DNA of 64,000 bases, from the NCBI GenBank assembly GCA_017460885.1, contig JAFUAB010000018.1, positions 119,931 to 183,930 on the forward strand, read 5' to 3'. The position numbers and the translations under genes are program-made. This document shows positions 3 to 47,963 of this stretch, in pieces. Source of the stretch: Lachnospiraceae bacterium. GTDB taxonomy: Bacteria > Bacillota > Clostridia > Lachnospirales > Lachnospiraceae. Each line of letters starts with the position of its first letter. The first letter of the stretch is position 1. Below the pieces are notes generated by a model, which was not told where the DNA came from, made no database searches, and saw only the letters and a list, made by a program, of their open reading frames with translations.

Positions 3-623
3 GCTGCCCATGAACTGATCGAGGAGATGCGTGATCTGATCTCCGGTACCAGGATAAAGGGCATTTCGGTATCTTATTATGAGAACAGCGACGGATTGGG
101 AGAGTTTTTTGAGGCTGAGGGTTTTAGAACAATTCAGGGTGACCCCGTGTATGCGATGAAAATGAGTACCCTGATGGAAATGCCACTGACCAAGAGGCTG
201 ATGCAGCTGAATCCCAAACAGGAGGCCAATCCGATAGCGCATTTGATGCGTAAGGAAAAAAATATGCTGCAGGCATTTCTGTACCAGTCAACCGGTTCGG
301 CCGATTTCCTCAAGAAGAATGACGACAATCTGAGTGTATGCGCATTCGATCAGACAAACCCTGTCGGAGTCATCGTTACCGATGTTCTGGGTGAGGATAT
401 GCTTTCCATTGACCTGGTGTACAATTCATCCGCTCCGGTTTTCATGGCAGCGCTGATCAAACGCTTCTCCAAGGAACTGACGGACGCATCGCGAATGGAC
501 GATACGATCTATTTCCTGACCATCAACGAAAAGATCGATCTGTTTTTGCATGCGCTTTCCGAAGGAAATGAAGAGTTCCTGCCTTCAATAACATTGCACA
601 GGGCAGTTTGGACGGAAGAGTAA
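3..623 (+). CDS. GNAT-like protein, 5' end outside the window
   Basis: The frame is open to the left edge (residues AHELIEEM precede the first ATG at 27), so this is the C-terminal 206 residues of a longer protein. The first residues end in EAEGFRTIQGDPVYAMKM, which resembles the last strands of a GNAT acetyltransferase domain. The remaining 130 or so residues could be a second, degenerate GNAT-like half (VCAFDQTNPVGVIVTDVL, then LSIDLVYNS). This two-half layout recurs in the proteins at 16792, 32543 and 43722. No acetyl-CoA motif is visible in the part present. A strong ribosome-binding site follows and the next gene starts 30 bases on, so it probably heads the module A operon. The family is judged by layout, not by strong motifs; substrate unknown. 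Confidence 0.6.
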   Translation, partial: AAHELIEEMRDLISGTRIKGISVSYYENSDGLGEFFEAEGFRTIQGDPVYAMKMSTLMEMPLTKRLMQLNPKQEANPIAHLMRKEKNMLQAFLYQSTGSADFLKKNDDNLSVCAFDQTNPVGVIVTDVLGEDMLSIDLVYNSSAPVFMAALIKRFSKELTDASRMDDTIYFLTINEKIDLFLHALSEGNEEFLPSITLHRAVWTEE

Positions 624-653
624 AAATACAGGAATCCCAAAAGGAGGTAAACA

Positions 654-1028
654 ATGGCTGAACAATTAACCAAACAACAGCAGCAGATGGTCGAGATACA
701 GGTGGGCAATGTCCAGGAGGAACAGACCCGGACCAGAACCCGTACACGACGTGCGGATGCCGGAGACGGCGATACCCCTGTCATTCCCCGTGAACTTACC
801 AAAAAGATCTCGAAGATGAATGTTGAAGTACCCAAGGAGGAGTATCAGAATCCCGAGGTGCTCCGGACAATGTTTGCGGAGAGCTATATAGCCGATAAAT
901 TCAAGGATTTCGGCTCACCTGAGGATATGTATAATATCCTGCTTCCCTATCTGAACCAAAGCCAGATCAAAAAGACCGTATTCACGAATAAGCTTAAGGC
1001 AGACAGGAAACAGGCCTCAGGCATGTAA
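654..1028 (+). CDS. small hypothetical protein, Gln-rich start
   Basis: A 124-residue soluble protein I do not recognise. It starts at ATG 654 behind AAAGGAGG, one of the best ribosome sites in the window. The N-terminus is Gln-rich (QQQQ), followed by a basic Thr/Arg repeat (RTRTRTRR, about residues 26-33). The rest is predicted helical (LRTMFAESYIADKFKDFG, then YNILLPYLNQSQIKKT). There is no signal peptide or membrane segment. It lies between the partial GNAT-like gene and a 464-residue unknown protein and is likely co-transcribed with both. It could be a small partner or chaperone of the next protein, but nothing in the sequence proves this. Confidence 0.65.
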   Translation: MAEQLTKQQQQMVEIQVGNVQEEQTRTRTRTRRADAGDGDTPVIPRELTKKISKMNVEVPKEEYQNPEVLRTMFAESYIADKFKDFGSPEDMYNILLPYLNQSQIKKTVFTNKLKADRKQASGM

Positions 1029-1098
1029 GCACCGCAGGTTGAGAACGGGACGGCTTTCGGGCTGTCGTACCGGATCGTGATCCGACCGGGGAGTATTG

Positions 1099-2493
1099 AT
1101 GGATTTACGCGAGCTGTTTTCGGAGGATTACTCCGAAGAACGTAAAAAGAATAAGGATATTCAAAACGGAGATCCCGAATTTGATACCGAGGAGTCACGG
1201 AAGTCCGAGGAAAATTATGAAAATGATCCCGCGGAAAGGGAAAACACCCTGAACGAAATACGTGATGAGACCGAAAAAGAGGGCGCTTACAGGACTATCA
1301 TGAACTTCAATGAGAATGAGTCTGCCCTGACGCTGCACAGCGGTTCGGACGGGGAATACATGGATCGTGTGATGGAGGCCGTAGATCAATACAGGGCTGC
1401 CTTAAACAATGAGGTATGGCTTCCGGAGCATGGCATGAGGCTGGATCGTGACGCGGTCGATTTTGTGATCGAGAACCATGGAAAGAATGTATTAAGAGCC
1501 TGCAATGAGTATGAACAAAACGCTGATCCGTGGACTCCGCGGGGACATCAGCGGCTTAATACCGTCAAGGCTCTGCGTCATGCCATCAGACAGCAGCAGG
1601 AAATGATGGTCGGTGATATGTGCGTGTATGTCACCAGTGACGCTGCGGTTAAAGGAGGAAGCGTGACCTTCGAGCAGATGATCATCGAGTCTCAGTCCGG
1701 CGATCTGCAGGGCAGAAACAGGGCTGAAGCGATCCATCTGGTTGAAAGGAGCGGAGAAAAAACCGGAGCCGCCGACGATGAGGGCGCAAGAAGACGGGGC
1801 AGAAGAACCCAAAAACAGGAAGAGCTGCAGGCTACCGACGTGGAAGAGAAGAAGGATACCCAGGAGAAGAGGAATGACAGCCTGAAGATGCGCGGTAATA
1901 AGCTCGGATACAGCTTTGTGGTCAACTTCCTCGGTAAGGAAGGGGCAGGCCTGTTGCCGTTCAACCCCAATTCCATGGCTAACGCAAAGAGCGTGACCGA
2001 GCTGGAAGAGATCACCGACTTTGTGCCCTTTGATAAGCTTATGGGAAGCAACCCCGCTGATTACAACCTGCAGATGAGTGTAAATGCCCAGAATCAGATC
2101 AATACGATCAAAATGCTCGGACTTCTGATAGGGGTTTCCGATTTTGCAAATCTGGCAAATAACAGAAATCTTTTATTTAAGGCTCATAAACGTGGTAAAA
2201 TGGTTTATGTTGATTCGGTTGTGCTGCGTGATCCGATAGCTGCGTCGCAGTCTCTCAGCGGAAATCTGACCAAACCCGAATTTGAAGCTCTGGTTGATGA
2301 TATCGGTATAGACGGCGGCGGAGGAGAGGAGCTGATACAGAGGCTTGACAGGCTTATCAACAGCCTGAATCAGGACATGAATGCCAGGGATTCCAATGTG
2401 ATCAAGCGCGCACAGAGGCTGTTTGCCGTACTTGCAGTGTACCTGATGACGGGACGCAATGCCGATGCGATCCCCGACCGGTATTTTCTGTAG
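1099..2493 (+). CDS. hypothetical acidic protein of module A
   Basis: A 464-residue protein of unknown function. I place the start at ATG 1099, behind GGGGAG at 1089-1094; the TTG just before it is less likely. The first 60 residues are very acidic and charged. A basic patch (GARRRGRRTQKQ) lies near residue 235, followed by a charged linker. The C-terminal 200 residues look globular (SFVVNFLGKEGAGLLPFNPN near 275, then FVPFDKLMG and MLGLLIGVSDFANLANN) and end in helices. There is no signal peptide, membrane segment or enzyme motif I can name. Charged linkers joined to a folded C-terminal domain are also seen in the 782-residue protein at 10398. It may be the effector-like member of module A. 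Confidence 0.65.
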   Translation: MDLRELFSEDYSEERKKNKDIQNGDPEFDTEESRKSEENYENDPAERENTLNEIRDETEKEGAYRTIMNFNENESALTLHSGSDGEYMDRVMEAVDQYRAALNNEVWLPEHGMRLDRDAVDFVIENHGKNVLRACNEYEQNADPWTPRGHQRLNTVKALRHAIRQQQEMMVGDMCVYVTSDAAVKGGSVTFEQMIIESQSGDLQGRNRAEAIHLVERSGEKTGAADDEGARRRGRRTQKQEELQATDVEEKKDTQEKRNDSLKMRGNKLGYSFVVNFLGKEGAGLLPFNPNSMANAKSVTELEEITDFVPFDKLMGSNPADYNLQMSVNAQNQINTIKMLGLLIGVSDFANLANNRNLLFKAHKRGKMVYVDSVVLRDPIAASQSLSGNLTKPEFEALVDDIGIDGGGGEELIQRLDRLINSLNQDMNARDSNVIKRAQRLFAVLAVYLMTGRNADAIPDRYFL

Positions 2494-2598
2494 GAAGGGC
2501 TGATCGATCTATGTACCGGTCAGCGGTAAATACCTTTTGCCCCCGGCATCAAAACAAAAGTTTGCAGTATCCATGGTTTACCTGCGATTGGAGGATGT

Positions 2599-4133: not shown

Positions 4134-4982
4134 ATGAACATCTTTGAGATCACGGAAGATAATATTGAACAGTACGGTTCATATATTGATCCCGATGCTG
4201 CCGAATACCTGGCCCGTGAATATTACCACGGGTTTGTAAACTGTGACGATGAAGAACCGGTCGCTGCTATAATCTACGAGATCCTCTACTCTGAGGATGA
4301 CAACAGGGATACGGAAGAAAGGGTGATCTGGCTTAGGATCGATGATGACGCTGCAGGTCAGGAGCTGCTTGACAGTTTTTGCGACTACTCCGATACGGAT
4401 AGTGTGTCGAAGATAATCTGCGATATCGAACCCGGTGACAAGGACAGGTATTCGGATTTTTTTGTAAGATCCGGTTTCAGCCTGCAGGAGATCGAGGACC
4501 AGAGCATCACCGTGACTCTCGGTGATTTCAGAGAGATCAGATTTGCCAGATCACTGTACAGCCCCGAGTTCATCAAGAGTCTCGATGAGATCGGACGCAG
4601 GACTTTCAGACGCGGTCTGGTGGATTGTGTATATAATATCAACAGGGTATTCCCGGACGACCTCACGATGCTTCCCATTGAATGGTTTGACACGGATATT
4701 TCGTGTTTTGACGAAGCTGACGGACAGAGTTACGGGTTTCTTTTATTTCATCGCAGTTATTCGGGGATCTATCATGTGGAGCTTCTGGCAGACTGGGGAA
4801 CCGATGCCAAACACAGTCTCCTTTTTATGATCAGATATTCCCTGAGCAAGGCTTATGAAACGCTCCCGGATGATACTAAGCTTGTGATCAACAGATACGA
4901 TGCCGGTTCAAAGGCACTATGTGATCTTGTATTCCCCGGCGTTCACGGAGCATCGTGTATACGTGCCGTCAGAACGCATTGA
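4134..4982 (+). CDS. GNAT-like two-half protein, probably non-catalytic
   Basis: A 282-residue soluble protein. Its N-terminal half follows the GNAT layout: a Met-x-Ile start, a strand with EEPVAAIIYEIL, a strand ERVIWLRIDDDAAGQEL where motif A should be, then SDFFVRSGFSLQEIEDQSIT resembling the last strands. The RxxGxG/A acetyl-CoA loop seen in 9817, 16792 and 43722 is missing (DDDAAG occupies that place), so I doubt acetyltransferase activity. The second half (about 135-282) may be another GNAT-like fold. It sits between the SH3-like membrane protein and two polytopic membrane proteins in module A. Assignment rests on layout and on analogy with the other modules. Confidence 0.55.
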   Translation: MNIFEITEDNIEQYGSYIDPDAAEYLAREYYHGFVNCDDEEPVAAIIYEILYSEDDNRDTEERVIWLRIDDDAAGQELLDSFCDYSDTDSVSKIICDIEPGDKDRYSDFFVRSGFSLQEIEDQSITVTLGDFREIRFARSLYSPEFIKSLDEIGRRTFRRGLVDCVYNINRVFPDDLTMLPIEWFDTDISCFDEADGQSYGFLLFHRSYSGIYHVELLADWGTDAKHSLLFMIRYSLSKAYETLPDDTKLVINRYDAGSKALCDLVFPGVHGASCIRAVRTH

Positions 4983-4992
4983 GGTGATCGAT

Positions 4993-5685
4993 ATGTATGA
5001 GTTTCTTTTTGATAAAAGTTCACAATTTGGATCTCTGGCGATCAATATAGCAGCCATAGTGATGCTTGCGACAGTGTTTATCCATACCGGGGCGTATCGT
5101 AAACGCGCACAGCTTGCCGATAAGCTCTTTTTTGCCGTATTATGTCTCAACATAGCAGCTGTGGTTCTTAACATTATATACGGAATCCTGATGCACGGAC
5201 TGAACGTAGTGCCGGTAATTTTGCAGATCATCCTGACATTAATATATATGGTTTATTCTTTTACACTACAGCTGATCGTTTATCTGATGGCAATGTTTCT
5301 GACGGTCATCTCGGGATATGAGGATAAAGTCAGGAAATACTGGCTGGCAATGGCTCTGCCGATGATGTTTCCTGTATTTCTCATCAGCAATTTATTTAAC
5401 GGATGGTTGTACGATGTTGCGGATCCTTTTGCAGAAATGATGAGCTACCGGTTCCATTTACTTCTGCTGGTTCCGATGCTGATCTATATTTTTTTATGCC
5501 TCCCCAATTTCTGGAAGCTCGGTAAACCGATGATCCTTTTGATGATAATACTGATCGCGACCAATTTTTCTATCAGCTATTATTTACCTGATATTCGTAT
5601 ATCGGCATTCATTATGACCTTGTTTGTGGTATTTTCCCACATATGCATGATGAACACTTCTTTCTATGAGGAGGTGAGGCCGTGA
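4993..5685 (+). CDS. polytopic (about 7 TM) membrane protein
   Basis: A 230-residue hydrophobic protein. ATG 4993 behind GAGGTGA (4981-4987) is a better start than in-frame starts further upstream, which would overlap the previous gene. About seven membrane segments fill the whole length (for example INIAAIVMLATVFIHTGAY, ILLMIILIATNFSISYYL, FIMTLFVVFSHICMM). No soluble domain follows. The arrangement resembles the sensor half of Lachnospiraceae 7TM-GGDEF proteins without the output domain. Its stop overlaps the next start in GTGA (5682-5685), so it is translationally coupled to a second 7TM protein that does carry a C-terminal domain; the two may form a complex. Confidence 0.7.
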   Translation: MYEFLFDKSSQFGSLAINIAAIVMLATVFIHTGAYRKRAQLADKLFFAVLCLNIAAVVLNIIYGILMHGLNVVPVILQIILTLIYMVYSFTLQLIVYLMAMFLTVISGYEDKVRKYWLAMALPMMFPVFLISNLFNGWLYDVADPFAEMMSYRFHLLLLVPMLIYIFLCLPNFWKLGKPMILLMIILIATNFSISYYLPDIRISAFIMTLFVVFSHICMMNTSFYEEVRP

Positions 5686-6755
5686 TCGCAAAGCTGCTTG
5701 GAATTCCCCTGCTTCAGGTCTCCATATTCCTTGATCTGGCCTCTTTCTATCTGATCGGAGGGCTGCTGCTTTTGTCCAATAAACTCAGTCTGAAGGAGAA
5801 TAATCCCAGAGCGAAGTTTTTTGTACTGCTGTGCATCTTTAATCTGCTGGATTCACTGCTGTCAATTATATGGTATGGTTCCATGTTTATCACGGGCAGA
5901 ACCGTCAGCTTCCTTGCCACTGTGGATACATTTGCATCGGAACTGTCATTTATCGGATTCTGTGCCGGATGGTCCGCATATGTATTGTACATGCTGTATG
6001 AGAGCAAAGACATGGTGAAGCGCGGATTTAAAAAGGCGATCATGCCCGCAACCGGATGTCTGGTCGTACTGGTATTGATAAACGGAGTCGCTTCCCATTA
6101 CACCGAGAGTTCTCCGAAGCTTTTGGGAGTGGTCACTGTTACCAGCTCTCTGATCCATCTGATCGAACTCGGATTCTTTATCGGATCCGGAGTTGTGATC
6201 TACAGATACAGGCGATCCCATCTGAATTCGCCGACGATCCGGGTCATGCCCTTTATAGTACCGATGGTTCTGACGATGGGTCTCACGGAGTATATGAGCT
6301 TCTCGGTTATGTCGTTTGGGTGTTCCGTGGCTCTTATCGATCTGTATTTCTCGATGATAGAGATCTGGAAATATAAGGACAGCGATCAAAGCTATTATAA
6401 GTCGGAGTACACAGAAGAGATCGTAAAGGAAGCCGAATCGGGCAAAAGGACTCTCGGAAGCGCTCTTTATATCGATGTTTCCGGCAATGCCGACGAGCTG
6501 CCAAACATTGTGAATGCAGAGCTTCCCCATAGAATGGAGCTTGTCAGGATCAATACCGATGATTTCGTGGTCTTCGTTGAGAGCCGCAAGCAGACCTTCC
6601 TCAAATCTCTCTGCGATATCATCGAGGATGTGATCCTCGAGTACGACGAAGAGCATCCGGATGATCTGATCAACGTCGAGATCAGCGTCCTCAGGATAGA
6701 TGACAACGAACCCCCGGGGGATTTTGTAAGACGTGTGATGCAGGGGGTGAAGTGA
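5682..6755 (+). CDS. 7TM sensor with degenerate GGDEF-like domain
   Basis: A 357-residue protein starting at GTG 5682, overlapping the previous stop by 4 bases. About seven membrane segments cover residues 10-230. The last 120 or so residues are cytoplasmic (LGSALYIDVSGN, RMELVRINTDDFVVFV, LINVEISVLRIDDN) and follow the strand-helix order of a GGDEF domain; in particular INTDDFVVFV sits where active enzymes have GGDEF. The catalytic motif is absent, so this may be a receptor or partner rather than a diguanylate cyclase. It closes module A. The GGDEF relationship is a weak fold-level reading. Confidence 0.6.
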   Translation: MIAKLLGIPLLQVSIFLDLASFYLIGGLLLLSNKLSLKENNPRAKFFVLLCIFNLLDSLLSIIWYGSMFITGRTVSFLATVDTFASELSFIGFCAGWSAYVLYMLYESKDMVKRGFKKAIMPATGCLVVLVLINGVASHYTESSPKLLGVVTVTSSLIHLIELGFFIGSGVVIYRYRRSHLNSPTIRVMPFIVPMVLTMGLTEYMSFSVMSFGCSVALIDLYFSMIEIWKYKDSDQSYYKSEYTEEIVKEAESGKRTLGSALYIDVSGNADELPNIVNAELPHRMELVRINTDDFVVFVESRKQTFLKSLCDIIEDVILEYDEEHPDDLINVEISVLRIDDNEPPGDFVRRVMQGVK

Positions 6756-9816: not shown

Positions 9817-10263
9817 ATGGAAGCACATCTTTTAAACAATTACGAAGACAGGGAAATGATCAGCGAGATCTTTCCCGATGAGGTCAGAAAACGTTCAACC
9901 GAATTTTTCGTGGCGACGGATCCTTTTTATGGGGTCTGCGGAGCGGCATCGCTCGGATTCGAGGAGGATACCCTGATAATCCAGTATCTTTTTGTTCCCG
10001 AGGAGTATCGCAGAAAAGGAGCCGCTACAGCGATCTTTGACGATATATCCGGGCGCCTTTCGGGACTGACGGATTTCTTTATGGAGGCATATTTTGATGC
10101 CGGATATGGATCGGATCTCGCCAGATTCTTTATGAGCAGGCCCGACTTTATAGTAGAGGATTACGGTGATTACTGTACGGTTCACTGGCTTTTTGTCTCC
10201 AAGGAGGATATCGGTTGTAAACAGGACTTGACGACTCCGGAGGTGGCCGCCACGCAGGGGTAA
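9817..10263 (+). CDS. GNAT acetyltransferase, module B
   Basis: A 148-residue single-domain GNAT protein behind AAAGGGA. Motif A is visible: a strand LIIQYLFVPEEY followed by the acetyl-CoA loop RRKGAA near residues 67-72 and a helix (TAIFDDISGRLS). The C-terminal part (FFMSRPDFIVEDYGDYCTVHW) is the usual last pair of strands. It lies 134 bases upstream of the 782-residue papain-like protein. Its substrate is unknown. Similar GNAT-fold proteins precede the large proteins of modules C, D and E, which suggests that it modifies or escorts its neighbour. Confidence 0.75.
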   Translation: MEAHLLNNYEDREMISEIFPDEVRKRSTEFFVATDPFYGVCGAASLGFEEDTLIIQYLFVPEEYRRKGAATAIFDDISGRLSGLTDFFMEAYFDAGYGSDLARFFMSRPDFIVEDYGDYCTVHWLFVSKEDIGCKQDLTTPEVAATQG

Positions 10264-10397: not shown

Positions 10398-12746
10398 ATG
10401 TCACAGCAGGAGTATAAAAACGGAGAATTGCTGTACCAGGAGCGTGTTGACCTGAAGAAGCAGATGGAAGGTCACATCCGGATGAACAAAGAGGAGGGAG
10501 AGCTCATCCTTGCCACCAAAAAGGAAGATCCGAATATGCCCGATCCCGAACAGCAGAAGAAGGATTTTCAGGTCAAAAATCTGGATAACCTCATGCGCAA
10601 AAAGAAAAAAGTTGCCATGAACAAAAAGCTCCTGGCGAAGGTATATAATCCCACTGTTTTTAAGCCTCTTAGCATATACGGTACTCCCGTGGGAGAGACG
10701 AAAACAAAAGGCGGTACACCGACTCCCGCATATCAGGAGACCAAGAAGGAGTTCCTTAAGAGCGGATCCAGGGTAGTTAACGAGATCGCCCGCAAGAATA
10801 TCGAGACAAACAAAAAAATAGCCCGGGACGCCAAAAACGACAGTGAGATAGTTTCTCTTATCATGGAGGAGCTTGAACATGCTTCCTCTCTTAAGCTTAA
10901 GCATATGCTGGCTGCCAATACCGACAAAGCGTCGGAGGATTATATCAGACACTGTGTGACACTGGATAAGCTGGTGAAGGCCAAGGCTGCCTGCCTGGAG
11001 CGTATCAAGGACGAGAAGCAGCAGAAGGCTGCCCTGAGCAAGATACAGACCCTGATAGACGAAGAGGTGATCAGGATACAGAACACCGCATCCAAAGCCG
11101 GCAAGGCCAAAAAGAAGAAGACTGTCAAAAATGTGACGACGATAGTCCAACAAGAGGAGACTGTCATTGAAAAGGATCCGATAAAGAAGGAAGAGCAGGT
11201 CGTTAAAAAGGAAGAGGTCGTCAAAAAAGAAGAGATCGTCAAAGAAGAGGTCGACAAAAAAGAAGAGGTCGTCAAAAAGGAAGAGGTCGTTAAAAAGGAA
11301 GAAAAGGTCGTCAGAAAAGAAGAGACCCTCGATACAGTCAAGGTCGGCACCAATAAAGTCATTCAAAAGCATGTTGACCGTCCTGAGATGATAAATGTTA
11401 ATAATCAGCAGGGCGTTTTGGATATTATTTATTTTTCGTACAATAAAGTTGATTATACCATCGTCAAGCGCAAGCCGAAGGATCTGAAGGAGGCTCTGGA
11501 ACTGCGCGGACAGATCACCAGAAATTTTGATGTTGTTAACGGAGCAATTCCCGATAATCTTGTGGAAATATATGCATATTATCAGGATTTTGTCGATCGG
11601 TTTGCCGAGACTCAGGATATAGTGTTTGATCAGAAGGTCATAACACCGGTACAGGCTGAAGATCTGGATTTTGAAACAGTGGTTTCACTCAGGAACAGGA
11701 TCACCGACGGCGGTCTGCTCTATTCCGATCTGAAAGGTCAGGCCAGGACAACCTACGATTATTATGACAACATCGTAAAGCGGCTTATAAAGGGCGAATA
11801 TCATGATGTTGTGCAGCATCAGAAGAGACAGCTGCCGAAATACAGCGTCAGACTGAATACAAACCTTGGCGGTAATAATGGTTTGTACGAAAAACAGGCT
11901 CTCGGCTCCAATGACTGCTGGTCATGCGCCGGAGCGGGGCTGTTTAATCAGTTTGTTGCGAATGATGCTAATTTCAGCAAGCTTAAGACCGATCAGAAGA
12001 AATTCCGTGCCTTCAAACCGGATCTGCAGACTTATGAGGATATGGGACTTGATAATGAAACATATTTAAAGCTGAAGCAGGATGTAGAGAGTTTTACGGT
12101 AAATAATAAGAATCAGAACAGATCGGGTTCTCCAATGGGTAATCCGTATATGCTTGCGGATTTCTTTCTCCGGAAGTTCTCGCAATCCCGTTCCCACAAG
12201 AACACTGCCGTGCGCAAGATGGTCCTTCAGCCGGGTCGTGCATACAAGTTTGCTAACGGTATTGCGAACAGCAACGGCGGTATCGGACAGGATGTAAACG
12301 CGATCCATAACCTGACTGTTAAGTTTATGGATACGGTATACAGGGCGCTTAGCGACGGAAGTGCTCTTACCCTGCTGTCAGGTTTGCATTACTACACCAT
12401 CGTGGGCATCGATGAGGGAGAGCTTATTGTGCACAATTCCATGAGTGAGGATCCCAAGACTACTCACAGACTGAGTATTTCAAGTGTGATGCGTGCTTAT
12501 GACGGAGCCGGAAATGTCGAACTAACCTGGTTCGAGAAGATCAATGATCCCAAGCAGATCATCGATCAGTACAAGAACATCGGTTATGATCCGAATACCC
12601 GCAAGTTCACATCCAGGAAGCGCAACTTCTCCGAAAATATAGCCCAGAAGAATGGTGTAGGTGCCTGGAAGGAACGCGACGAAAAAGAGGACGATATCTC
12701 CGGCCTGGTCGCTGACGGCATCTACCTCCCCCAGCAGCTGGCATGA
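10398..12746 (+). CDS. large protein with papain-like cysteine-protease fold
   Basis: A 782-residue protein behind AGGAGG, with no signal peptide or membrane segment. Residues 1-260 are helical and charged. About 265-311 is a tandem repeat of KKEEVV-type hexapeptides (18-base DNA repeats near 11190-11330). The C-terminal part looks like a papain-fold hydrolase: Cys507 in NDCWSCAGAGLFNQF, His664 in SGLHYYTIVGID and Asn680 in LIVHNS, in the order and spacing of C39-like and papain-like enzymes. Catalysis is inferred, not proven. The start MSQQEYK resembles MSQQEEH of the 1099-residue protein at 17737, which suggests a shared targeting or GNAT-recognition end. A GNAT gene precedes it and a membrane SH3-like protein follows. 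Confidence 0.65.
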   Translation: MSQQEYKNGELLYQERVDLKKQMEGHIRMNKEEGELILATKKEDPNMPDPEQQKKDFQVKNLDNLMRKKKKVAMNKKLLAKVYNPTVFKPLSIYGTPVGETKTKGGTPTPAYQETKKEFLKSGSRVVNEIARKNIETNKKIARDAKNDSEIVSLIMEELEHASSLKLKHMLAANTDKASEDYIRHCVTLDKLVKAKAACLERIKDEKQQKAALSKIQTLIDEEVIRIQNTASKAGKAKKKKTVKNVTTIVQQEETVIEKDPIKKEEQVVKKEEVVKKEEIVKEEVDKKEEVVKKEEVVKKEEKVVRKEETLDTVKVGTNKVIQKHVDRPEMINVNNQQGVLDIIYFSYNKVDYTIVKRKPKDLKEALELRGQITRNFDVVNGAIPDNLVEIYAYYQDFVDRFAETQDIVFDQKVITPVQAEDLDFETVVSLRNRITDGGLLYSDLKGQARTTYDYYDNIVKRLIKGEYHDVVQHQKRQLPKYSVRLNTNLGGNNGLYEKQALGSNDCWSCAGAGLFNQFVANDANFSKLKTDQKKFRAFKPDLQTYEDMGLDNETYLKLKQDVESFTVNNKNQNRSGSPMGNPYMLADFFLRKFSQSRSHKNTAVRKMVLQPGRAYKFANGIANSNGGIGQDVNAIHNLTVKFMDTVYRALSDGSALTLLSGLHYYTIVGIDEGELIVHNSMSEDPKTTHRLSISSVMRAYDGAGNVELTWFEKINDPKQIIDQYKNIGYDPNTRKFTSRKRNFSENIAQKNGVGAWKERDEKEDDISGLVADGIYLPQQLA

Positions 12747-33900: not shown

Positions 33901-36900
33901 GTGTCAGAACTGTTCGAAAATAAGAATAAACAGGGGCAGAAGCAGCTTTATAAACCCATGGACCTCAATGCAAACACTTTTAAGGCTGTATCTTTTGTGA
34001 AGGATCCCGTCGAAAATACAAAGGTCATCGGCAGGGAAGGTCTTGCCATGCCCATTCCCAAAGAGGCAAAAGAAAAGTCGGTAATGGGGTCGGTCAGGAG
34101 ATTCTTCGGTTTCAAAAGGATCAGCGACAGGGATTTGTCCGGAGTAAAGGGCAATATCGGTCTTAATGAAGAGAAAGAGGAAAATGAAACGGTCTTAAAG
34201 ACACCGATCACGGATCTTAGCGCTGAAGAGAGAAAAGGTGATTCTGTCAGACTGGATAAGGAAAAATGGATAGAAACAGAAAGGTGGATCGATGATATCA
34301 TCGCGTCCGACGAGTATATAAATGCCACCGAGGAAACCAAAAGGCTTGTCACTGATCTCAAAAGCGCCGTGACGAGCGGAAAGGATATCCGGAAATCCGA
34401 AGCGATCACTGGGATCCTGAATAACGAAACAAACAGACAGTTAAAGGAAGATCTTAAAATTCCGGAATGGTTGGAAGGGGAAGAAGCAGAAGCAGAGCGC
34501 CGGAAGATCATGGATAAGTATGCCGATGCGTCTTTGCGGATGAAGCTGTTTACCAGGCTGGAGGAACAGACCTCGGGTAGTCTGACCGTTCCTAATGGAG
34601 CGCAGATCATCGACCGTACCGATGACAGTTATTTTACAGGCAGGTTTAAACTGGATCAGAAGCTCCATGCAGGTGACGGGCACACATATGATCATATCGA
34701 ATACAATATGGAAAATAAAAACAGTGACCGCACCAAAAACGTCCTGTTTTTGAATAATCCGAGTACCGGTGACATTGAACAGGGCGGAGTCGGAGACTGC
34801 TATCTGATGTCTGCCGTATCGGCGATAGTCGAGAAAGATCCCGATATAATTAAGAAATGTATGAAGGATGAGGGAAAGACCGTACTGGTACGGTTCTATT
34901 CCATGCATACCGGTGAGCCGGTGTATGTCCGGGTTAAAAAGACATCCGTTTATGCCAGATTTTCCGTAACCGAGAACGGACAGAAGGTCACTTCGGTCAA
35001 TCAGACCATCGGAGCAAAACGATCAGTATGGATCAACCTGCTGGAAAAGGCTTTTTCGGCGGTAAGGGAAAAGATCGATGCAGACATTGATGATGCTCAC
35101 AGCAAACCTCTTTTTGGGTCAAGACCTAAGGGCTACGCTATTCTGGAGCGTGGCTCTGCCTCAAGCGCTTATATGATGCTTACCGGAAAAAGAATGAAAA
35201 AACGAATCCTTCCTTCGCAGAACAAAAAGGTTTTCGTGGGGATAAACACCCTTTTCTCTCACGTTCATTATGGGGAGAAGGAAAGCTTTATGAAGGGGAA
35301 GAAGGAAGGAGATGTTAAAAGAAACGCAGATGACTGGAACAGATACAAGGCTAAGCAGATCTTCGGCATCGATGTTCCGGAGGGCGATAATGCCCTGATG
35401 GAGGTCTTTAAGAAAAACCGGGTGCTTAATGCTTATCAGGATTATCTCGCAAAATATCTTAAGGATAATTTTGAATCCAAATCCAATAAAGATTCCTTCA
35501 GTCTGACGGGGAGCACTACAGCTGCTTTCAGGACCATGACGGATCTCAATCTGTTTCTGGACAGTGTGGATCTGGCAAAGATGCCCACGATCGAACTTCG
35601 GGGTGTCGATCAGACAAAGATGAAGAGACATTATATCGAATACTTCAGGAGATCGATCGCTGCTTCGGGACTCCTTCTTAACGGCGTAAATACCAACGGA
35701 TGCTACAGCGAGGAAGAGAAACAGATCTGGAAGGAATTAAACTACAGTCTGACGGATAAGGATGGCAATAAAAGGGTTGTTTTAGCCGATACATCAAAGC
35801 ATGATCTGGAGCAGAAAAAGGGATCGGCACAGCTCGGTAATTCCGGAGAGACTGTGATGGGAGGCATAGCAGGCACACATGCATACTCGATACAGGGTAC
35901 CTGTATAAGGGAGGTAAACGTATGCGGCAAACCTGTTAAGCTCAGGTTTGTCATCGTGCGAAATCCCTGGAGGGACAACAGGGTTCGTCTGTATGAGCCG
36001 GATACCATGAAACCCTATATGGATACATCCAAAAAGAACGAGGATGGTACCGAGCGCAGAGCGCAGGGTGTCTTTTTGATGGAGTTTTCGGATTTCTGTC
36101 AGACCTTCAAAAGCTATGAGTACGAGGATATGGCTCCGGAGGAGCAGCAGAAGACCGAAAAGGAGAGCCTTAAGGTCGAAAAGCTGCGTGATCAGTATAA
36201 GCCTGCCCTGGATATGACGGCAGATGAACGTGAGTCCGAGTCGGTGAAGAAGAGAAACGTGATTCTTGACGAACTGTTTAAAATGTCGGATGAATCGCTC
36301 AACTCTCCGGAGTATCTTAAATTTTCCGATAATACGCAGATCATCGTCGGAAAGATCAATATGATGTCCATGAAGTCAATTACGCCTGAGACCAGATCCA
36401 AGCTGATGTCGGAGATATTTCCCACTCTCGAGAAGCTGCGGAAGGATTACGAATCATATGAAAAGATCGAGGATGAGGAACTTAAAAAAGCTGCACACGA
36501 TAAGCTGGTTGCGGACTATGGAGAGCCGGATCTTCTGATCAAATACGCCGCGATAATGCTTCCCGTGACCGGAGGAGCTCTGGAGGTTCCGGAGAATGCC
36601 CGGATCATGGAAGGAACGGACGATAACCTCTTTGTTTCGGATGAGGATCTGAAGAATAAATTATACCGGGAAGACGGATCTGTCCTGAATCACGAAAAAG
36701 TATATTTCGATGAGGCGAAGAGTGACATGACGGCTCATCCGCTTTTTGCGACCGAGCCTTCAACCGAAGATGTGGCTCAGGGTAATATCGGAGATTGTTA
36801 TATGATCTCCGGATTAAACGCTATGCTTGAGCAGGATCCTGCTTATATCAAAAGCTGCATGAAGGACGAGGGTGATACGGTTGTTGTCCGGTTCTTTAAA

Positions 36901-38184
36901 TACAAATCAGGAGATCCTGTTTATGTGCGCGTCAAAAAGACCGTTGCATTCAGCAAGTATACCGGTAAGAAGGACGGGGAGGACTTCTCTCATGAGTGCA
37001 GAAAGGGCGCACGAAGGGCACTTTGGGTTCATATGTTTGAAAAGGCTTTTGTAATTGCCAGAGACAGTCTCGAAGACCCGTCACGCACTAAGGGTGCTAC
37101 AGGCTTCGCAAAGATCAGAGGCGGAAAAGCCAGGATCTTTATCAGGATGATCACGAAAAAGAAATTTAATCTTACGAAAGCTTACGGAAGTTTGTATGAG
37201 AGTCGGAAATACATCAACTTTGGAACTCTGGCCTATCATGTACACTATGATGAAAAAAATGAATTCATGAAAGGGAAAAACGAGGATGGATCCGTCAGGA
37301 CCGCTAAGGACTGGAATCTGTACAAGGCAAAGCAGATATTCGGACTGGACCTCATTCCTTCACAGGATACCAAACTGTATGATCTGTTCCGTACAAATAA
37401 GATATTTGAAAAATATAACGGATTTATGCTTAAGCATCTGCTTAAGTATTTCAAGTCCGAAGGTAATAATGGTTACTATCAAGCCACTCCGGCATTTGTC
37501 ACTACCAACGATCTGGAGATGTTCCTTGACTCCATTGATATTAAGAAGATGCCGGTATTAAATCTCAAAAGCGGGATAGATGAGGATGTGCTCAGGGAAA
37601 GGTATATTGCGTATTTCAGAAGGAGTGCCCTGGCCACCGGGCTTCTCAAAAACAACGTATGTACGGACGGAAATTACAGTGATCTGGAGAATGAAGCGTT
37701 TAAGCAGATCCAGGATGCGGTTCATCAGACAAGCGGTACAAATAAAATGGTTCTGGCCAGTACCGGAGCCGCTACCCTTGCCTGGAAAAGCGGAGAGGAG
37801 ACCGGAGAGAGCGGTGAGTCGCTGATTTCGGGTATGGCTTCGGATCATGCATATACGATTCACGGAGTCAAAACCGAGAAGCGTAATATAGGCGGCAGGG
37901 AAGTGACGCTTAAATTTGTCCATGTTCTGAATCCGTGGAATGCCAACAGGATAAGACTTTATGACAATGATACCTTTAAACCCTACAAGGCTGATATCCA
38001 AAAAAACGAGGACGGCACAGAATATGATGCAAAGGGTATGTGCTGGATGGAACTGCGTGACTTCTATGAGACCTTCTACAGTTTCTCGATAGAGGAAGAG
38101 GAGAATGTAGAGAAGGAAAAGACAGAAACTAAAAAGACAGTAAAGAAAAAATCGGTAAAGAAAAAGACAGAAAAGAAACAGTAG
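33901..38184 (+). CDS. giant protein with two calpain-like protease domains
   Basis: A 1427-residue soluble protein starting at GTG 33901 behind GGAGGAG. It carries two complete calpain-type triads. First: Cys300 in QGGVGDCYLMSA, His660 in GTHAYSIQG, Asn688 in VRNPWRDNRVRL. Second: Cys966 in QGNIGDCYMISG, His1316 in SDHAYTIHG, Asn1344 in VLNPWNANRIRL. Cys-His spacing is 360 and 350 and His-Asn is 28 in both, so the halves are an internal duplication. Classical calpains have a shorter Cys-His distance, so each domain contains an insertion. The C-terminus is a Lys-rich tail (KKKSVKKKTEKKQ). No signal peptide. With calcium-dependent calpains as reference, calcium sites were not identified. Confidence 0.8.
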   Translation: MSELFENKNKQGQKQLYKPMDLNANTFKAVSFVKDPVENTKVIGREGLAMPIPKEAKEKSVMGSVRRFFGFKRISDRDLSGVKGNIGLNEEKEENETVLKTPITDLSAEERKGDSVRLDKEKWIETERWIDDIIASDEYINATEETKRLVTDLKSAVTSGKDIRKSEAITGILNNETNRQLKEDLKIPEWLEGEEAEAERRKIMDKYADASLRMKLFTRLEEQTSGSLTVPNGAQIIDRTDDSYFTGRFKLDQKLHAGDGHTYDHIEYNMENKNSDRTKNVLFLNNPSTGDIEQGGVGDCYLMSAVSAIVEKDPDIIKKCMKDEGKTVLVRFYSMHTGEPVYVRVKKTSVYARFSVTENGQKVTSVNQTIGAKRSVWINLLEKAFSAVREKIDADIDDAHSKPLFGSRPKGYAILERGSASSAYMMLTGKRMKKRILPSQNKKVFVGINTLFSHVHYGEKESFMKGKKEGDVKRNADDWNRYKAKQIFGIDVPEGDNALMEVFKKNRVLNAYQDYLAKYLKDNFESKSNKDSFSLTGSTTAAFRTMTDLNLFLDSVDLAKMPTIELRGVDQTKMKRHYIEYFRRSIAASGLLLNGVNTNGCYSEEEKQIWKELNYSLTDKDGNKRVVLADTSKHDLEQKKGSAQLGNSGETVMGGIAGTHAYSIQGTCIREVNVCGKPVKLRFVIVRNPWRDNRVRLYEPDTMKPYMDTSKKNEDGTERRAQGVFLMEFSDFCQTFKSYEYEDMAPEEQQKTEKESLKVEKLRDQYKPALDMTADERESESVKKRNVILDELFKMSDESLNSPEYLKFSDNTQIIVGKINMMSMKSITPETRSKLMSEIFPTLEKLRKDYESYEKIEDEELKKAAHDKLVADYGEPDLLIKYAAIMLPVTGGALEVPENARIMEGTDDNLFVSDEDLKNKLYREDGSVLNHEKVYFDEAKSDMTAHPLFATEPSTEDVAQGNIGDCYMISGLNAMLEQDPAYIKSCMKDEGDTVVVRFFKYKSGDPVYVRVKKTVAFSKYTGKKDGEDFSHECRKGARRALWVHMFEKAFVIARDSLEDPSRTKGATGFAKIRGGKARIFIRMITKKKFNLTKAYGSLYESRKYINFGTLAYHVHYDEKNEFMKGKNEDGSVRTAKDWNLYKAKQIFGLDLIPSQDTKLYDLFRTNKIFEKYNGFMLKHLLKYFKSEGNNGYYQATPAFVTTNDLEMFLDSIDIKKMPVLNLKSGIDEDVLRERYIAYFRRSALATGLLKNNVCTDGNYSDLENEAFKQIQDAVHQTSGTNKMVLASTGAATLAWKSGEETGESGESLISGMASDHAYTIHGVKTEKRNIGGREVTLKFVHVLNPWNANRIRLYDNDTFKPYKADIQKNEDGTEYDAKGMCWMELRDFYETFYSFSIEEEENVEKEKTETKKTVKKKSVKKKTEKKQ

Positions 38185-43721: not shown

Positions 43722-44681
43722 ATGGATATTGTAAGGATTAAAAAAGAAGAACTGAAGTATTTTTCCGGTCTTGCGCCGGTCGAGGCATTGGGGATAATGA
43801 CACTTCCGAATGCTGCGGCTATCGGTGCGGTGGAAAAACATGATGCAGCCGGACTTTTGTTATTTACAAAGCAGGGCGAAGAGAGCATAACCATTGAATG
43901 GCTTTATGTGGATGAACTCTTCCGGGGAACCGGAGTCGGCGGAATGCTGATGGAGACGATATTTGATATCGCCCGCCAGCTTAAGGTAAAAAGAGTCTGT
44001 GCCAGACTTATACAGGATGAATTATTTGAGGCATGGCAGATCTACCTTATGCAATGGGGGTTTTCCTGGAGGAAAACTCTTCCCGGAGAGTGGAACATCA
44101 CTGCTGAAGAGTTACTGAGCGTGCCGCTTTCTACTTCCTCCATCAAAATGAAGGATGAGCTCCGGCATATCCGTCCACTTTCAAAGGTTGCCTCCGGAGA
44201 TCTGGCGAGAGCTGTAAAGAATGCCGAAAATGAGGGTGAATCCATTCTCTATGATGTGATCGGGGATGGCAGATATCTGGATCCGGAATTGTCTGTAGTA
44301 TATATGAAGGATGAGAAGATAACCGGAATGCTTCTGATACATAAGAGTGCAAATATCGTTTATCCGGCGGTTTTCTGGGCAGAGGGGAGAGATCGGTCCG
44401 TTATGTCCGCTCTTGTTGAGGGAAGCCTTAAATTCGGCGAAAAGAATCTTAAGGATCATGATATGATCAGGATTACCGCCTCAGATGACGATCTGTATGG
44501 TTTTGAGAGGGAACTTCTTGCAAATATACCGGGGATCCGTGAAAACACAGTGTATATGATGCAGGCTTCTCCCAATGCACCGTATGAGTCCGGGGAGGAA
44601 GACACGGAACTTAAGGATTTGTTTATGCCGGCAGACATCCCCACGGGCGGATTTACGGTGACGGATATCGAAGTAAGATAA
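43722..44681 (+). CDS. double-GNAT protein, module E
   Basis: A 319-residue protein behind GGAGAAG. The N-terminal GNAT domain is canonical: ITIEWLYVDELF, then the acetyl-CoA loop RGTGVGG and helix GMLMETIFDIARQ, then YLMQWGFSWRKTL. The second half (about 145-290; LSVVYMKDEKITGMLLIH, then YPAVFWAEGRDRSVMSALV) repeats the fold without the loop. This is the same architecture as 16792. The gene ends 12 bases before the 1089-residue kinase-like protein, so they form an operon. It probably acetylates something, but the substrate is not evident; the neighbour is the candidate by position. Confidence 0.8.
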   Translation: MDIVRIKKEELKYFSGLAPVEALGIMTLPNAAAIGAVEKHDAAGLLLFTKQGEESITIEWLYVDELFRGTGVGGMLMETIFDIARQLKVKRVCARLIQDELFEAWQIYLMQWGFSWRKTLPGEWNITAEELLSVPLSTSSIKMKDELRHIRPLSKVASGDLARAVKNAENEGESILYDVIGDGRYLDPELSVVYMKDEKITGMLLIHKSANIVYPAVFWAEGRDRSVMSALVEGSLKFGEKNLKDHDMIRITASDDDLYGFERELLANIPGIRENTVYMMQASPNAPYESGEEDTELKDLFMPADIPTGGFTVTDIEVR

Positions 44682-44693: not shown

Positions 44694-47600
44694 ATGGATT
44701 TTAAAACAAAAACAAAAGTAACAAAGGAAAATGTATCCACATTTAATCCTATGGAATATACCCAGGAGGAAATGCATTTCGATCAGTTCAAAAAGGACAG
44801 TCAGTCAACCCTGGATAACAGAAGCCGCACGCTGCAGCAGGAGCTGGAATCCACGAATCTCGGTCAGATTCAGGGACAGATGAATGCTCCCATGTCTTTT
44901 GCCGAGAGAGTAGAAAAGACCAAAAGCCTTTCACGGACAATGGCATCATCTCTGTCCAAGACCTGGAAACTCTTCGGAAACAGCAAGGAAATGGATGCCG
45001 TGATCAAAAATGTGAATGGCCTGAATGCCCTTCTGGAGGGGAATATACCCAGGACACAGGACGGCAGGATAAATGCGGATACGCTGAAGCAGCGTCACTT
45101 AAAAGGCTATGAGGCAGCCCTCAGTGCCTGTCAGTACTATCTGGATGTGAAGACTCCCAAGCATTCCTGGACTAAGAAGCGTTACCGCCGTGTGGAAGCC
45201 ATGAAGGCAGCACTTGAAAAAGAAAGGGAGCTTCTGGAGGTTGTCATCTCAAACATTGCGGATCAGAAATATAAGGCAGAGGATCTCGAGGATATCCAGA
45301 CTCCCCGTGATCTCTTAAGCAAGATACGTACCGTAGAAGTTCAGGGGGAGGCAGAGCTTCAGATCGAAGGAAACTCTACCGATGTCTACAGGGTCAGGCT
45401 TAACATCAACGGAAAAGAAGGCTGGTATTATTTCAAGCAGAATTTAAAGCCTGTGGGTGATGATCTGCCGGGATTTGTAAAAAGACGTTTAAGACAGCTG
45501 AATAACAGCTCCTCCCATATCGGTGATGAAAAGAAGGAGGAAGCCAGGCTCTTCGGAAGGATCGATAAGCAGGATTATGAACTCGGAACGCAGTTCCTGA
45601 ACGGCATGTCCTCGTCAATATCAAAAGCTGCAGACAGTATAAGTGATACAAAGGAACTGAACAAACGCCTGCTGACATTTCTGGGTCATGATTTCGACAG
45701 GATCTTCAAGGAACTTGACGAGTATAACACCAGGGCCGAACAGTCCGAAAGGGAGAGGGTACAGCTGTCTGCGGAGCTCCAGAATGCCAAGAATCAGATG
45801 AATAACGATGCAACCGTACAGTCTCTGACCAACCGGCTTAAATATCATAAGGTCCTTCCAAAGATGACGGAATATGAGTGGCTGGTCAGGCTTTCAAAGG
45901 ATAAGACGAATCCTCTGGGGATCACTGTGAAGAAGGACAAGAATCTATTTAATATCCTGAAGAGAATGTCCGAAACAGAGGATGGCCTTGCGAAGATACA
46001 GGGAGGCAATAACCGCATCCGCAGATTCTTCACCAGAACCCTCGGCAAGGAGATCGAGGCATACGGACAGCAGAGGGAGAGGAGCAATGCCTCCGAAAAC
46101 GAGGTTATGGCAAAGAACAACACCGCCACCTACAGGGTTGCCAATCTCTTTGGCTTCAGTGATGTGGTGACTTCGTCTGAAAGTGCCGTACTCAATATCA
46201 GGCTTGCGGGAGCGCAGCAGGCGGATAATGTCTCCGGAACGATCTCCGTGGAGGCACCGGGACTTGAAATGCTCAAGCTTGTTGAGATCGCCGAACAGCA
46301 GAATAAGAAGATACACTATTCGCCTAAGGCCATGAGACAGCTCGTAAGGCTTCAGATGTTTGACACTGCCTGCATGCAGACGGACAGGCACTGGAGAAAC
46401 TTTAAATGCATGACGAATCCGGATCTTCAAAACTGGGATGGTGTGACACCGCTCAAGGAGGACATCGTGATCGAGAGCATCGGTTCATATGACCACGATA
46501 TGTCCTTCGGAAATGTACTCTTAAAGGATGCTTTCAAGGATAAAAATGACCCTGAGGGCGCTTCCGTCAAAAACGGTATGCTTCCGCCTGTCATAAGGAA
46601 AATAAAGAGTGTGGGCGCAGAAAGCTCTTATTTCAGAAATCAGATCATGGGAGAGATCAATCTTTCACTTTTTGAGAATATGCAAATGCCATTGCCCCGG
46701 AGGGAATGCGGCTATTATCAGACACATGAAAAGAACAGACGCAGTGGTCGCTATGCAAATAAGACTATCGCAGTGAGTGAGCTGGGAGTTGACATTAAAG
46801 AGCTTCCGACTAAGAGAATGAAGGTCGGTGATGATATGATAACCTTTTATGTATTCAACGGGATGCTCCTTAAGAAATCGGTTTTCGGTATTGATAACCT
46901 TGACATATGTGATAATGAGGGAAATACGATCGGACTTAACATTCTGGACAAAATGGGCTTTTCCGAGCGTGCTCTGGGTCTCGGCTATATGAGCGACAGT
47001 ATTAATAATACAGAGGAAATGCTACGGTCTTCCAAAATGGTCATTGGAGGCGGAGCGGTTCCCACCAATCTGGTACACAGCATACTCGACGACTGTCAGG
47101 AAATAAGCCAATACCTCAAAACAAAGGACAAAGATGGTTATACGGTTCCCAAACGTCTTTCGGAGCTTAAGCCGGAGGATCAGATAGAGGTTCTGGCGTG
47201 CGCGATGAGACTTCATGATTCCTTAAGCAAGATAGATTTTTCAGATAATGAATATGAAACGAAAAACATATCGCACGGGACCGGATACATAGAATTCAGG
47301 CTCAGAGCCATAGTCTATTACTTAAAGCAGGAGGTTGACTGCCTTGCCCCCGCAGAAAAGGACGCACTGCTTGACAAAGTAAAGAAAAAAGTACTTAAGG
47401 GACCTCAGAAAAAAGATAAGGACAAGCCGGCAGATCAGAAGAATAAAACTGCAGATGATTATATCGAAGTTCCCACCATGCTGCATATGGACAGGCAGGC
47501 TTATCTCGATATCTGTAAGATGAGAGATAACTTTGAAACCGATGTGCGCTATTCCCTCCAGGATCTGGGATGGGAGGAGGATAAGATCAAGGCCTTTAAG

Positions 47601-47963
47601 GCAAGGATCGATGAACAGCTCGAGCAGATCGAGAAATGCCGGACGGCCGCTGAAAAGGTTCTCGCATTGAAATATCCGGATGAGAACAACCCGTTAAGGA
47701 ATTTCTTCCTCAATGAAAAGGATTACGATAGTATCACTGATATCCGCGACATTGCCTGGGATCCCGGAATGAGCTATTTTGCGACCGAGGATGAAAACTT
47801 CCTGATGTCGGATGCGAATTATACAGCATTCCTGACCGATGAGGAAAAGAACTCGAAGCTTGATGTTACGAACAAGCATCGAAAGATCGAGCGTCTCCAC
47901 GGTCTGAAGCAGGATATGAAAACCTATAGCACCATGATAAGCGGCGTGGTAAAGACCGCCTGA
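44694..47963 (+). CDS. 1089-residue protein with PI3K/HipA-like kinase motifs
   Basis: A large soluble protein behind AGGAGG, no signal peptide. N-terminal helices occupy residues 1-215. A strand with VYRVRLNINGKEGWYYFKQN places a candidate ATP-binding Lys248. NTATYRVANLFGFSDVV near residue 485 begins the core. The catalytic loop is LQMFDTACMQTDRHWRNF (Asp564, Arg565, His566, Asn569), followed by a metal site IGSYDHDMSFGN (Asp600, Asp602). DRHxxN with a later D-x-x-F/G is the hallmark of PI3K, HipA and Fam20-like kinases. I infer an active kinase of unknown substrate. It is homologous with the inactive-looking protein at 17737. A charged C-terminal segment follows the core. Confidence 0.7.
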   Translation: MDFKTKTKVTKENVSTFNPMEYTQEEMHFDQFKKDSQSTLDNRSRTLQQELESTNLGQIQGQMNAPMSFAERVEKTKSLSRTMASSLSKTWKLFGNSKEMDAVIKNVNGLNALLEGNIPRTQDGRINADTLKQRHLKGYEAALSACQYYLDVKTPKHSWTKKRYRRVEAMKAALEKERELLEVVISNIADQKYKAEDLEDIQTPRDLLSKIRTVEVQGEAELQIEGNSTDVYRVRLNINGKEGWYYFKQNLKPVGDDLPGFVKRRLRQLNNSSSHIGDEKKEEARLFGRIDKQDYELGTQFLNGMSSSISKAADSISDTKELNKRLLTFLGHDFDRIFKELDEYNTRAEQSERERVQLSAELQNAKNQMNNDATVQSLTNRLKYHKVLPKMTEYEWLVRLSKDKTNPLGITVKKDKNLFNILKRMSETEDGLAKIQGGNNRIRRFFTRTLGKEIEAYGQQRERSNASENEVMAKNNTATYRVANLFGFSDVVTSSESAVLNIRLAGAQQADNVSGTISVEAPGLEMLKLVEIAEQQNKKIHYSPKAMRQLVRLQMFDTACMQTDRHWRNFKCMTNPDLQNWDGVTPLKEDIVIESIGSYDHDMSFGNVLLKDAFKDKNDPEGASVKNGMLPPVIRKIKSVGAESSYFRNQIMGEINLSLFENMQMPLPRRECGYYQTHEKNRRSGRYANKTIAVSELGVDIKELPTKRMKVGDDMITFYVFNGMLLKKSVFGIDNLDICDNEGNTIGLNILDKMGFSERALGLGYMSDSINNTEEMLRSSKMVIGGGAVPTNLVHSILDDCQEISQYLKTKDKDGYTVPKRLSELKPEDQIEVLACAMRLHDSLSKIDFSDNEYETKNISHGTGYIEFRLRAIVYYLKQEVDCLAPAEKDALLDKVKKKVLKGPQKKDKDKPADQKNKTADDYIEVPTMLHMDRQAYLDICKMRDNFETDVRYSLQDLGWEEDKIKAFKARIDEQLEQIEKCRTAAEKVLALKYPDENNPLRNFFLNEKDYDSITDIRDIAWDPGMSYFATEDENFLMSDANYTAFLTDEEKNSKLDVTNKHRKIERLHGLKQDMKTYSTMISGVVKTA

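Follow-up and report, generated by a model that had tools for sequence, protein, structure and literature searches.

The stretch analysed here, referred to as the window, comprises 64,000 nucleotides from a Lachnospiraceae bacterium with a genome of 3.6 Mb (positions 119931-183930 of contig JAFUAB010000018.1, C51 below). It contains five modules, labelled A to E, in which genes for proteins with a Gcn5-related N-acetyltransferase (GNAT) fold accompany very large proteins, referred to as giants. All genes named in a preliminary description of this DNA correspond to open reading frames at the coordinates collected in Table 1. As that description had reported, a GNAT gene precedes a giant in modules B, C, D and E, and GNAT-like genes, A1 and A6, lie at both ends of module A, where they are recognised by profile match. 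The whole A1 gene occupies contig positions 119732-120553 (273 amino acids, aa) and starts 65 bp after the third AAA+ ATPase gene of an extracellular contractile injection system (eCIS). The observation was confirmed and extends further than first described: the modules are present, but the set is genome-wide and not limited to five, since the genome encodes 19 tandem, i.e. two-lobed, GNATs. The giants are probably cargos of the eCIS, and the GNAT appears to be a dedicated partner of its giant, more likely acting as an adaptor or chaperone than as an enzyme.

Table 1. Genes of modules A to E, with positions given within the window.
Feature	Positions	Strand	Properties
A1, tandem GNAT	1..623	+	5' end cut by window edge; N-lobe acetyl-CoA motif intact
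A2, possible small cargo	654..1028	+	124 aa; Q/E-rich N-terminus (by eye)
A3, possible pseudokinase-like cargo	1096..2493	+	465 aa; assigned by eye; no Pfam match
A6, tandem GNAT	4134..4982	+	282 aa; acetyl-CoA loop deleted
A7 and A8, pair of integral membrane proteins following A6	4900..6755	+	
B GNAT, single	9817..10263	+	148 aa; motif RRKGAA present (by eye)
B giant	10398..12746	+	782 aa; hydrophilic N-terminus; papain-like Cys core by eye only
C GNAT, tandem	16792..17673	+	293 aa; N-lobe motif intact
C giant	17737..21036	+	1099 aa; N-terminal helical module (about 60-350) common to other giants
D GNAT, tandem	32543..33430	+	295 aa; acetyl-CoA motif lost
D small protein between GNAT and giant	33414..33899	+	161 aa; acidic; no significant family match
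D giant	33901..38184	+	1427 aa; two calpain-type peptidase domains with Cys, His, Asn motifs
E GNAT, tandem	43722..44681	+	319 aa; N-lobe motif intact
E giant	44694..47963	+	1089 aa; hydrophilic leader; HipA-like kinase domain with DRHxRN

In regard to their composition, the giants carry almost no annotated domains. The double calpain core proposed for giant D was confirmed by Pfam (Peptidase_C2, 1.2e-33), which places it among the calpain-type peptidases; the GDC, HAY and NPW motifs of the first copy align with calpain-8, and the triad of the second copy was recognised by eye. Giant E, described beforehand as a kinase, looks like a HipA-like kinase: of its 27 family members, nine have HipA_C matches below the cut-off, the best at 1.7e-4, and all keep the residues DRH, R, N and YD.D unchanged. 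The two remaining cores are calls made by eye, namely the papain-like core of giant B and the pseudokinase of giant C, the latter from a degenerate kinase-like region together with an insignificant match to giant E (E 0.3). Searches of Pfam and of PDB sequences gave no match for giant B, and PDB sequences gave none for the giant E family. A short tandem repeat inside giant B (window 11182-11325) encodes a K/E/V-rich stretch. Among ten giants outside the window, the only clear Pfam match was to an ABC1-type kinase (4e-14) in a protein of 2221 aa, accompanied by a weak HipA match in a giant of 1413 aa. DUF4157 was found in none of the 14 giants of this genome scanned with Pfam, and no RTX domain was found in the giants. 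An all-against-all comparison revealed that the giants are mosaic, the same stretches recurring in different combinations within and between genomes. An anti-phage defence system was also considered and rejected, as PADLOC, run on 10 window proteins, gave two marginal matches only (best 0.0028), both to giant C.

The GNAT fold of the partners is supported by Pfam for C and E, by the secondary-structure order of a model of the E partner, and by profile matches to solved GNATs. The Pfam matches of the C (7e-13) and E (1e-7) partners lie above the curated cut-off and those of B (1e-4) and D (0.047) below it. A1 and A6 have no match in Pfam and were recognised by a profile built from the C, D, E and A6 GNATs, in which A6 itself is thus included. 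Profile matches to solved GNATs reach 1.2e-8 at best. The AlphaFold2 model of the E GNAT (mean predicted local distance difference test score 85.5) is ordered from residue 2 and shows the strand and helix order of two lobes. The C, D, E, A1 and A6 proteins are all tandem GNATs of 273-319 aa, while B is single. The small protein encoded between GNAT and giant in module D recalls, by eye, small effector chaperones, with no family match.

A profile search of the whole source genome gave 27 GNAT matches at E <= 10, of which 23 fell below 1e-3. The 19 tandem GNATs are those of 240 aa or more, a count which leaves out a duplicate on contig C35 and a match on C47 missed by the gene caller. According to a script, 11 of the 19 directly adjoin a same-strand soluble protein of at least 350 aa, and three further pairs were recognised by eye (the D pair with its small intervening gene, a divergent pair and a pair on contig C9). 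The signal-less neighbours of GNATs in this genome include proteins of 2999, 2821, 2548, 1545, 1413, 1115, 1108, 1089 and 718 aa, and the giant of 2221 aa follows a frame of 131 aa. A soluble same-strand gene of at least 700 aa lies within 300 bp downstream of 21 of 56 tandem GNATs, compared to 6.3% of 442 other genes; two of those 21 downstream genes are AAA+ ATPases, and the compared stretches were themselves chosen by GNAT matches. Elsewhere on C51 (41108-41999), a tandem GNAT gene upstream of a giant of 2617 aa is split into two overlapping frames, and the region with a GNAT and the giant of 2821 aa occurs on both C5 and C35, probably as an assembly duplication.

Conservation of the pairing was followed in relatives of giant E, which were sought, without using the GNATs, in one genome each of 84,980 species. 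The resulting 34 loci include the near-duplicates L132/L133, L135/L136, L140/L161 and L143/L146; 32 of them are labelled Lachnospiraceae, Butyrivibrio (six) or Lachnoclostridium, and seven are labelled ruminant gut. A GNAT gene was found within 2.5 kb of the giant in 33 of the 34 (32 by script and L154 by translating a gap), so that this independent test upheld the co-occurrence of the E pair in relatives; in the remaining locus, L156, with no visible GNAT, another large protein precedes the giant. The distances among GNATs and among giants correlate (r 0.92 in 28 pairs, a value reached by none of 2000 permutations; 0.94 in 17 pairs after removal of the loci lacking eCIS), although shared ancestry alone would also give such a correlation. 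Three Butyrivibrio loci share 59% identity with the E pair of the window in the giant and 45-48% in the adjacent GNAT, compared to 15-19% identity to the E GNAT for other GNATs at two of these loci. The pairing is therefore real and, for E, conserved, with partners that diverge together.

For the other giants, the relatives are fewer. In the other 199 genomes of a family sample of 200, no relative of giant D reached E <= 1e-10 and a single partial match was obtained for giant B, and since these giants are almost without relatives there, their pairs can hardly be followed in this way. In the 33 genomes holding E-like giants, relatives of giant C were found at 16 places in 12 genomes and calpain relatives of giant D as eight open frames in four, and all 12 and all four of these genomes carry Pvc16_N, the eCIS marker used here. 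The pairing is not universal: at L188, L192 and L199, which come from two closely related strains, the giant C relative is preceded by a different gene or has no GNAT upstream.

The eCIS of the source genome is situated immediately to the left of the window, at contig positions 59192-119666. Genes for sheath, tube, gp25, baseplate, Pvc16 and AAA+ proteins stand together, as expected of an eCIS locus, with Pfam matches above the cut-off for Pvc16_N (1e-24), DUF4280 (PAAR-like), sheath, T4 gp19 tube, OB spike, gp25 and Baseplate_J, and matches below it for the hub and for a CIS13-like protein (2.9e-23). Three AAA+ ATPases match PF22977, one of them above the cut-off, and the last ATPase gene is the one that ends 65 bp before A1. 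On the far side of the eCIS, 76 bp separate the CIS13-like gene from the end of a preceding giant E relative of 1108 aa, which is accompanied by a divergent tandem GNAT, and GNAT/giant pairs hence flank the eCIS on both sides.

Linkage to eCIS extends to other genomes. Among the 200 family genomes, the tandem-GNAT profile had matches at E <= 1e-8 in 11, Pvc16_N was present in 21 (20 above the cut-off), and six had both; the GNAT counts of this search are lower bounds (no more than 11 candidates were scored in each genome) and, like those from the 33 genomes with E-like giants, represent matches and not checked genes. Pvc16_N is present in each of the five genomes that have at least four GNAT matches, a cut chosen after the data had been seen (p 8e-6; 8e-5 without the source genome). 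If any GNAT match is taken and the source genome left out, Pvc16_N is present in five of ten (p 0.001). The GNAT-positive genomes without Pvc16_N are G023 (60% complete), G061 and G083 (internal stop codons in the matches), G170 (79% complete) and G146, which is 68% complete and yet holds two eCIS-type ATPase genes. In G041, G129 and G180 the cassettes lie within 7 kb of eCIS genes (gene names partly by eye), and in G080 a GNAT/giant pair lies about 12 kb past an ATPase gene. A tandem GNAT is the direct neighbour of five of the 11 eCIS-type ATPase genes in the fetched stretches, namely in the source genome (G000, C51 117447-120553), G006, G129, G146 and G180. Given that the eCIS of the source genome has three ATPase genes and that some ATPase genes adjoin GNAT genes, cargo-specific loaders are possible.

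Further evidence comes from the 33 genomes with E-like giants, of which 20 carry Pvc16_N and 13 do not; the tube family was present in all three Pvc16_N-positive genomes tested. This sample overlaps with the previous one, G223 being apparently the same genome as G180 (same coordinates). GNAT matches number 3-54 per genome (median 10.5) in the 20 genomes with Pvc16_N and 1-3 (median 1) in the 13 without it (p 7e-7), so that GNAT number scales with eCIS. The highest number of any genome here, 54, was found in G205, the genome of locus L137. Likewise, relatives of giant C occur in 12 and those of giant D in four of the 20 eCIS genomes, and neither occurs in the 13 others. At 12 of the 13 eCIS-negative loci the giant has a different N-terminus, alike among them by eye, and the GNATs are short (187-214 aa in the 11 measured), while the thirteenth, L164, has a leader-like start and a GNAT of 268 aa. 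At the 21 eCIS loci, the GNAT has 322-361 aa in 17, is short in two, is cut by the contig end in one and is absent from one. This contrast is evidence that the leader goes with eCIS and, equally, that the bond of the GNAT goes with the giant and not with eCIS.

The N-terminus of the giants points in the same direction. The preliminary description had stated that they lack a signal peptide, and indeed no N-terminal hydrophobic stretch is visible, the absence of a Sec signal being judged by hydropathy only. The giants examined were 49 (53 GNAT neighbours minus four AAA+ ATPases, some added by hand from gene maps), or 46 after three more had been dropped; start codons were refined by a script seeking ribosome-binding sites, and single starts may be wrong. 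In the 46 giants, the first 50 aa have a mean hydropathy of -1.29, compared to -0.70 for the rest of the same proteins (p 3e-11), and glutamine and asparagine make up 18% of the first 30 residues as against 9% of the rest. Compared with 175 control proteins from the same stretches, the leader of the 49 giants is likewise more hydrophilic (-1.24 vs -0.36) and starts more often with MD (21/49 vs 9/175). Among E-like giants, MD occurs within the first 14 residues at 14 of 21 loci with eCIS and at none of 13 without it (p 8e-5). In the available text of the sources, eCIS signals are described as disordered and 50-70 aa long (PMC11495950), and the first 50 residues of eCIS cargos as very hydrophilic (PMC11297309). 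The hydrophilic, Q/N-rich N-terminus of the giants resembles such packaging signals. Although PMC11297309 states, in the part available, that no conserved signal sequence was detected in eCIS cargo, PMC11495950, within the same limit, grouped cargo signals by alignment. The effector or toxin role suggested in the preliminary description is consequently better founded, because the pairs adjoin an eCIS and the giants share an eCIS-like leader, while injection itself is something we infer from the genes.

What the GNATs do is a separate question. HlyC-type toxin acyltransferases have a GNAT-like fold and are encoded just before a very large protein, and on this ground the pairs had been likened to them. 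Kinship was not supported: no HlyC family match was found among the window proteins in Pfam or for the C, D and E GNATs in NCBIfam, the giants differ from HlyC substrates in that no RTX domain was found, and most partners are two-lobed GNATs, many of them without the cofactor loop. With the acetyl-CoA loop scored as [RQ]xxGx[GA], 53 of the 54 readable tandem GNATs lack it in the C-lobe, the single match being judged chance; in the N-lobe it is intact in 34 of 55 (one of these, in G180, false by eye), lost in 19 and near in two. Loss or alteration of the N-lobe loop affects the D partner and giant-adjacent GNATs of G041, G080 and G146. As the loop is missing or altered to this extent in the two lobes, acyl transfer is unlikely as a job common to all tandem GNATs. 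In VipF and MshD, which also have two GNAT lobes per chain, the catalytic lobe is the C-lobe, and acetyl-CoA bound by the N-lobe is not placed for catalysis, according to the available text of PMC10936415. By this analogy the tandem GNATs would be enzymatically inactive, which favours a binding role as adaptor or chaperone; the chaperone-effector pairing also mentioned beforehand is plausible.

VipF is itself a tandem GNAT effector of Legionella (PMC10936415, available text), and it could be asked whether the GNATs are injected like it and merely grouped with other effectors, a reading to which the three GNAT genes in a row in G180 would fit. We regard this as improbable, because the first 50 residues of 55 GNATs have a hydropathy of +0.05 (vs -1.29 for the giants) and so carry no leader, the E GNAT model has no disordered start, and the loop is missing in the very lobe that VipF uses. 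The GNATs are therefore unlikely to be cargo. The presence of a partner beside each giant, diverging together with it, would also suit antidotes that shield the producer from its own giant, but the varied catalytic domains would call for varied antidotes, yet the fold is always GNAT, and this explanation appears the most remote of those considered.

Compared to known systems, the locus has the sheath, tube, spike, gp25, baseplate, Pvc16-like and AAA+ genes of the Photorhabdus virulence cassette (PVC) and of the Serratia antifeeding prophage (Afp), and the same signal-less cargos with a hydrophilic N-terminus next to the operon (PMC11495950, PMC11297309). As far as the available text of these sources describes them, PVC and Afp have a Pvc15-type AAA+ loader; here, three ATPase genes are present, the giants are spread across the genome and a GNAT partner is encoded beside them. 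The accessible part of PMC11297309 proposes DUF4157 as an eCIS toxin chaperone in cis or in trans, i.e. a recurrent cargo-associated domain perhaps aiding folding or loading; the recurrent partner in our case is a GNAT, encoded by a separate gene in the loci read. VipF, as presented in the same portion of PMC10936415, carries the acetyl-CoA loop in both lobes, unlike the GNATs described here. No GNAT/giant pairs were described in the titles and abstracts of the literature covered on contractile injection, eCIS loading and tandem GNATs, which included few subscription papers and no preprints; the one paper on Lachnospiraceae among them names contractile injection in its references alone. The word acetyltransferase is absent from the main text of PMC8213781 and PMC11297309, and PMC12210884 names neither Lachnospiraceae nor rumen.

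Some further features deserve mention. By eye, A6 falls in the same subgroup as several GNATs that adjoin integral membrane proteins, and a membrane-protein pair similar to A7 and A8 (229 and 349 aa) follows a loop-deleted GNAT beside the eCIS of G041 (C7, 91830-93565). Just before module E, a frame of 97 aa (window 43202-43495) has a partial peptidase C39 match (7e-11) and is perhaps a gene fragment. At the right end of the window, genes for cobalt chelatase and for cobalamin biosynthesis are preceded by a cobalamin riboswitch (RF00174; window 48152-48362).

Taken as a whole, the best explanation, to which we assign a probability of about 50%, is that the giants are modular eCIS cargos with dedicated GNAT-fold adaptor or chaperone partners. 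According to this model, the giants would be effectors of the eCIS encoded directly upstream of the window, each built from a hydrophilic Q/N-rich leader, shared helical modules and a varied catalytic domain (calpain, papain-like, HipA-like or ABC1-like kinase). Each GNAT-fold partner would bind its own giant in the producing cell, keep it soluble or silent, and pass it to an AAA+ ATPase, which would load it into the tube. Where the two proteins bind, in what order the events occur and which cells are targeted are our inference, and the targets are perhaps eukaryotic in view of the catalytic domains of the giants. Loading and injection of the giants by the eCIS we hold to be quite likely. That the GNAT acts as an adaptor or chaperone rather than as an enzyme, once the giants are taken as injected cargo, is somewhat favoured, since almost every C-lobe lacks the acetyl-CoA loop, which makes this likelier than HlyC-like modification. 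That tandem pseudo-GNATs make up a novel adaptor class through which contractile injection systems load specific cargos is a tentative proposal.

Several observations weigh against this model. The first 30 residues of the giants are net negative (median -3), unlike the slight positive charge given for residues 6-21 of eCIS cargo signals in the available part of PMC11297309. A GNAT is visible in only eight of the 16 stretches with giant C relatives and in three of the eight with calpain relatives, some or several of the others being cut by stretch or contig ends, and the restriction of calpain relatives to eCIS genomes is not significant (4/20 vs 0/13, p 0.14). Among the 200 sampled genomes, 15 of the 21 with Pvc16_N have no GNAT match, and the GNAT partner would thus be limited to some eCIS lineages. 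The contrast in GNAT length is not clean, as L155 and L157 have eCIS yet short GNATs (180 and 209 aa). The giants are encoded with or beside an eCIS in the window genome and others, but among the 33 genomes the pair is also present in 13 that lack both Pvc16_N and the tube family, so that the tie of the GNAT to the giant needs no eCIS. Since the eCIS-negative giants appear to belong mainly to one clade, the leader contrast may be a matter of ancestry. The 13 genomes, together with the many cassettes on contigs other than that of the eCIS, would agree with giants that are intracellular conflict, defence or signalling proteins, sharing islands with eCIS without being cargo. Copy number, leader and gene order track eCIS, however, and PADLOC gave no more than the marginal matches to giant C, and we consider this alternative unlikely. 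In regard to the role of the GNATs, a giant adjoins 28 of 34 motif-intact GNATs compared to 11 of 21 with a lost or altered motif (p 0.03), so the N-lobe site may matter, and this pattern argues for a catalytic function, or one involving a cofactor, in some GNATs. Active enzymes that acetylate or acylate their own giant, switching it on or off, would account for it and for the C and E partners lying above the Pfam cut-off, but are hard to reconcile with the near-universal loss of the C-lobe loop, with the 21 of 55 N-lobes whose loop is lost or altered, the D partner included, and with the lack of any HlyC family match. We judge them unlikely as a general explanation, if marginally less so than the intracellular alternative.

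A protein family that partners cargos would serve as a genome-wide marker for them and as an entry point to the choice and loading of cargo by eCIS. The finding points to large contractile-injection arsenals in Lachnospiraceae, several of them from ruminant guts, none of which was found described in the literature searched. If the model is true, certain Lachnospiraceae have built large modular arsenals of giant injected proteins with pseudo-GNAT adaptors, whose targets may be eukaryotic cells, for instance protozoa or fungi of the rumen.

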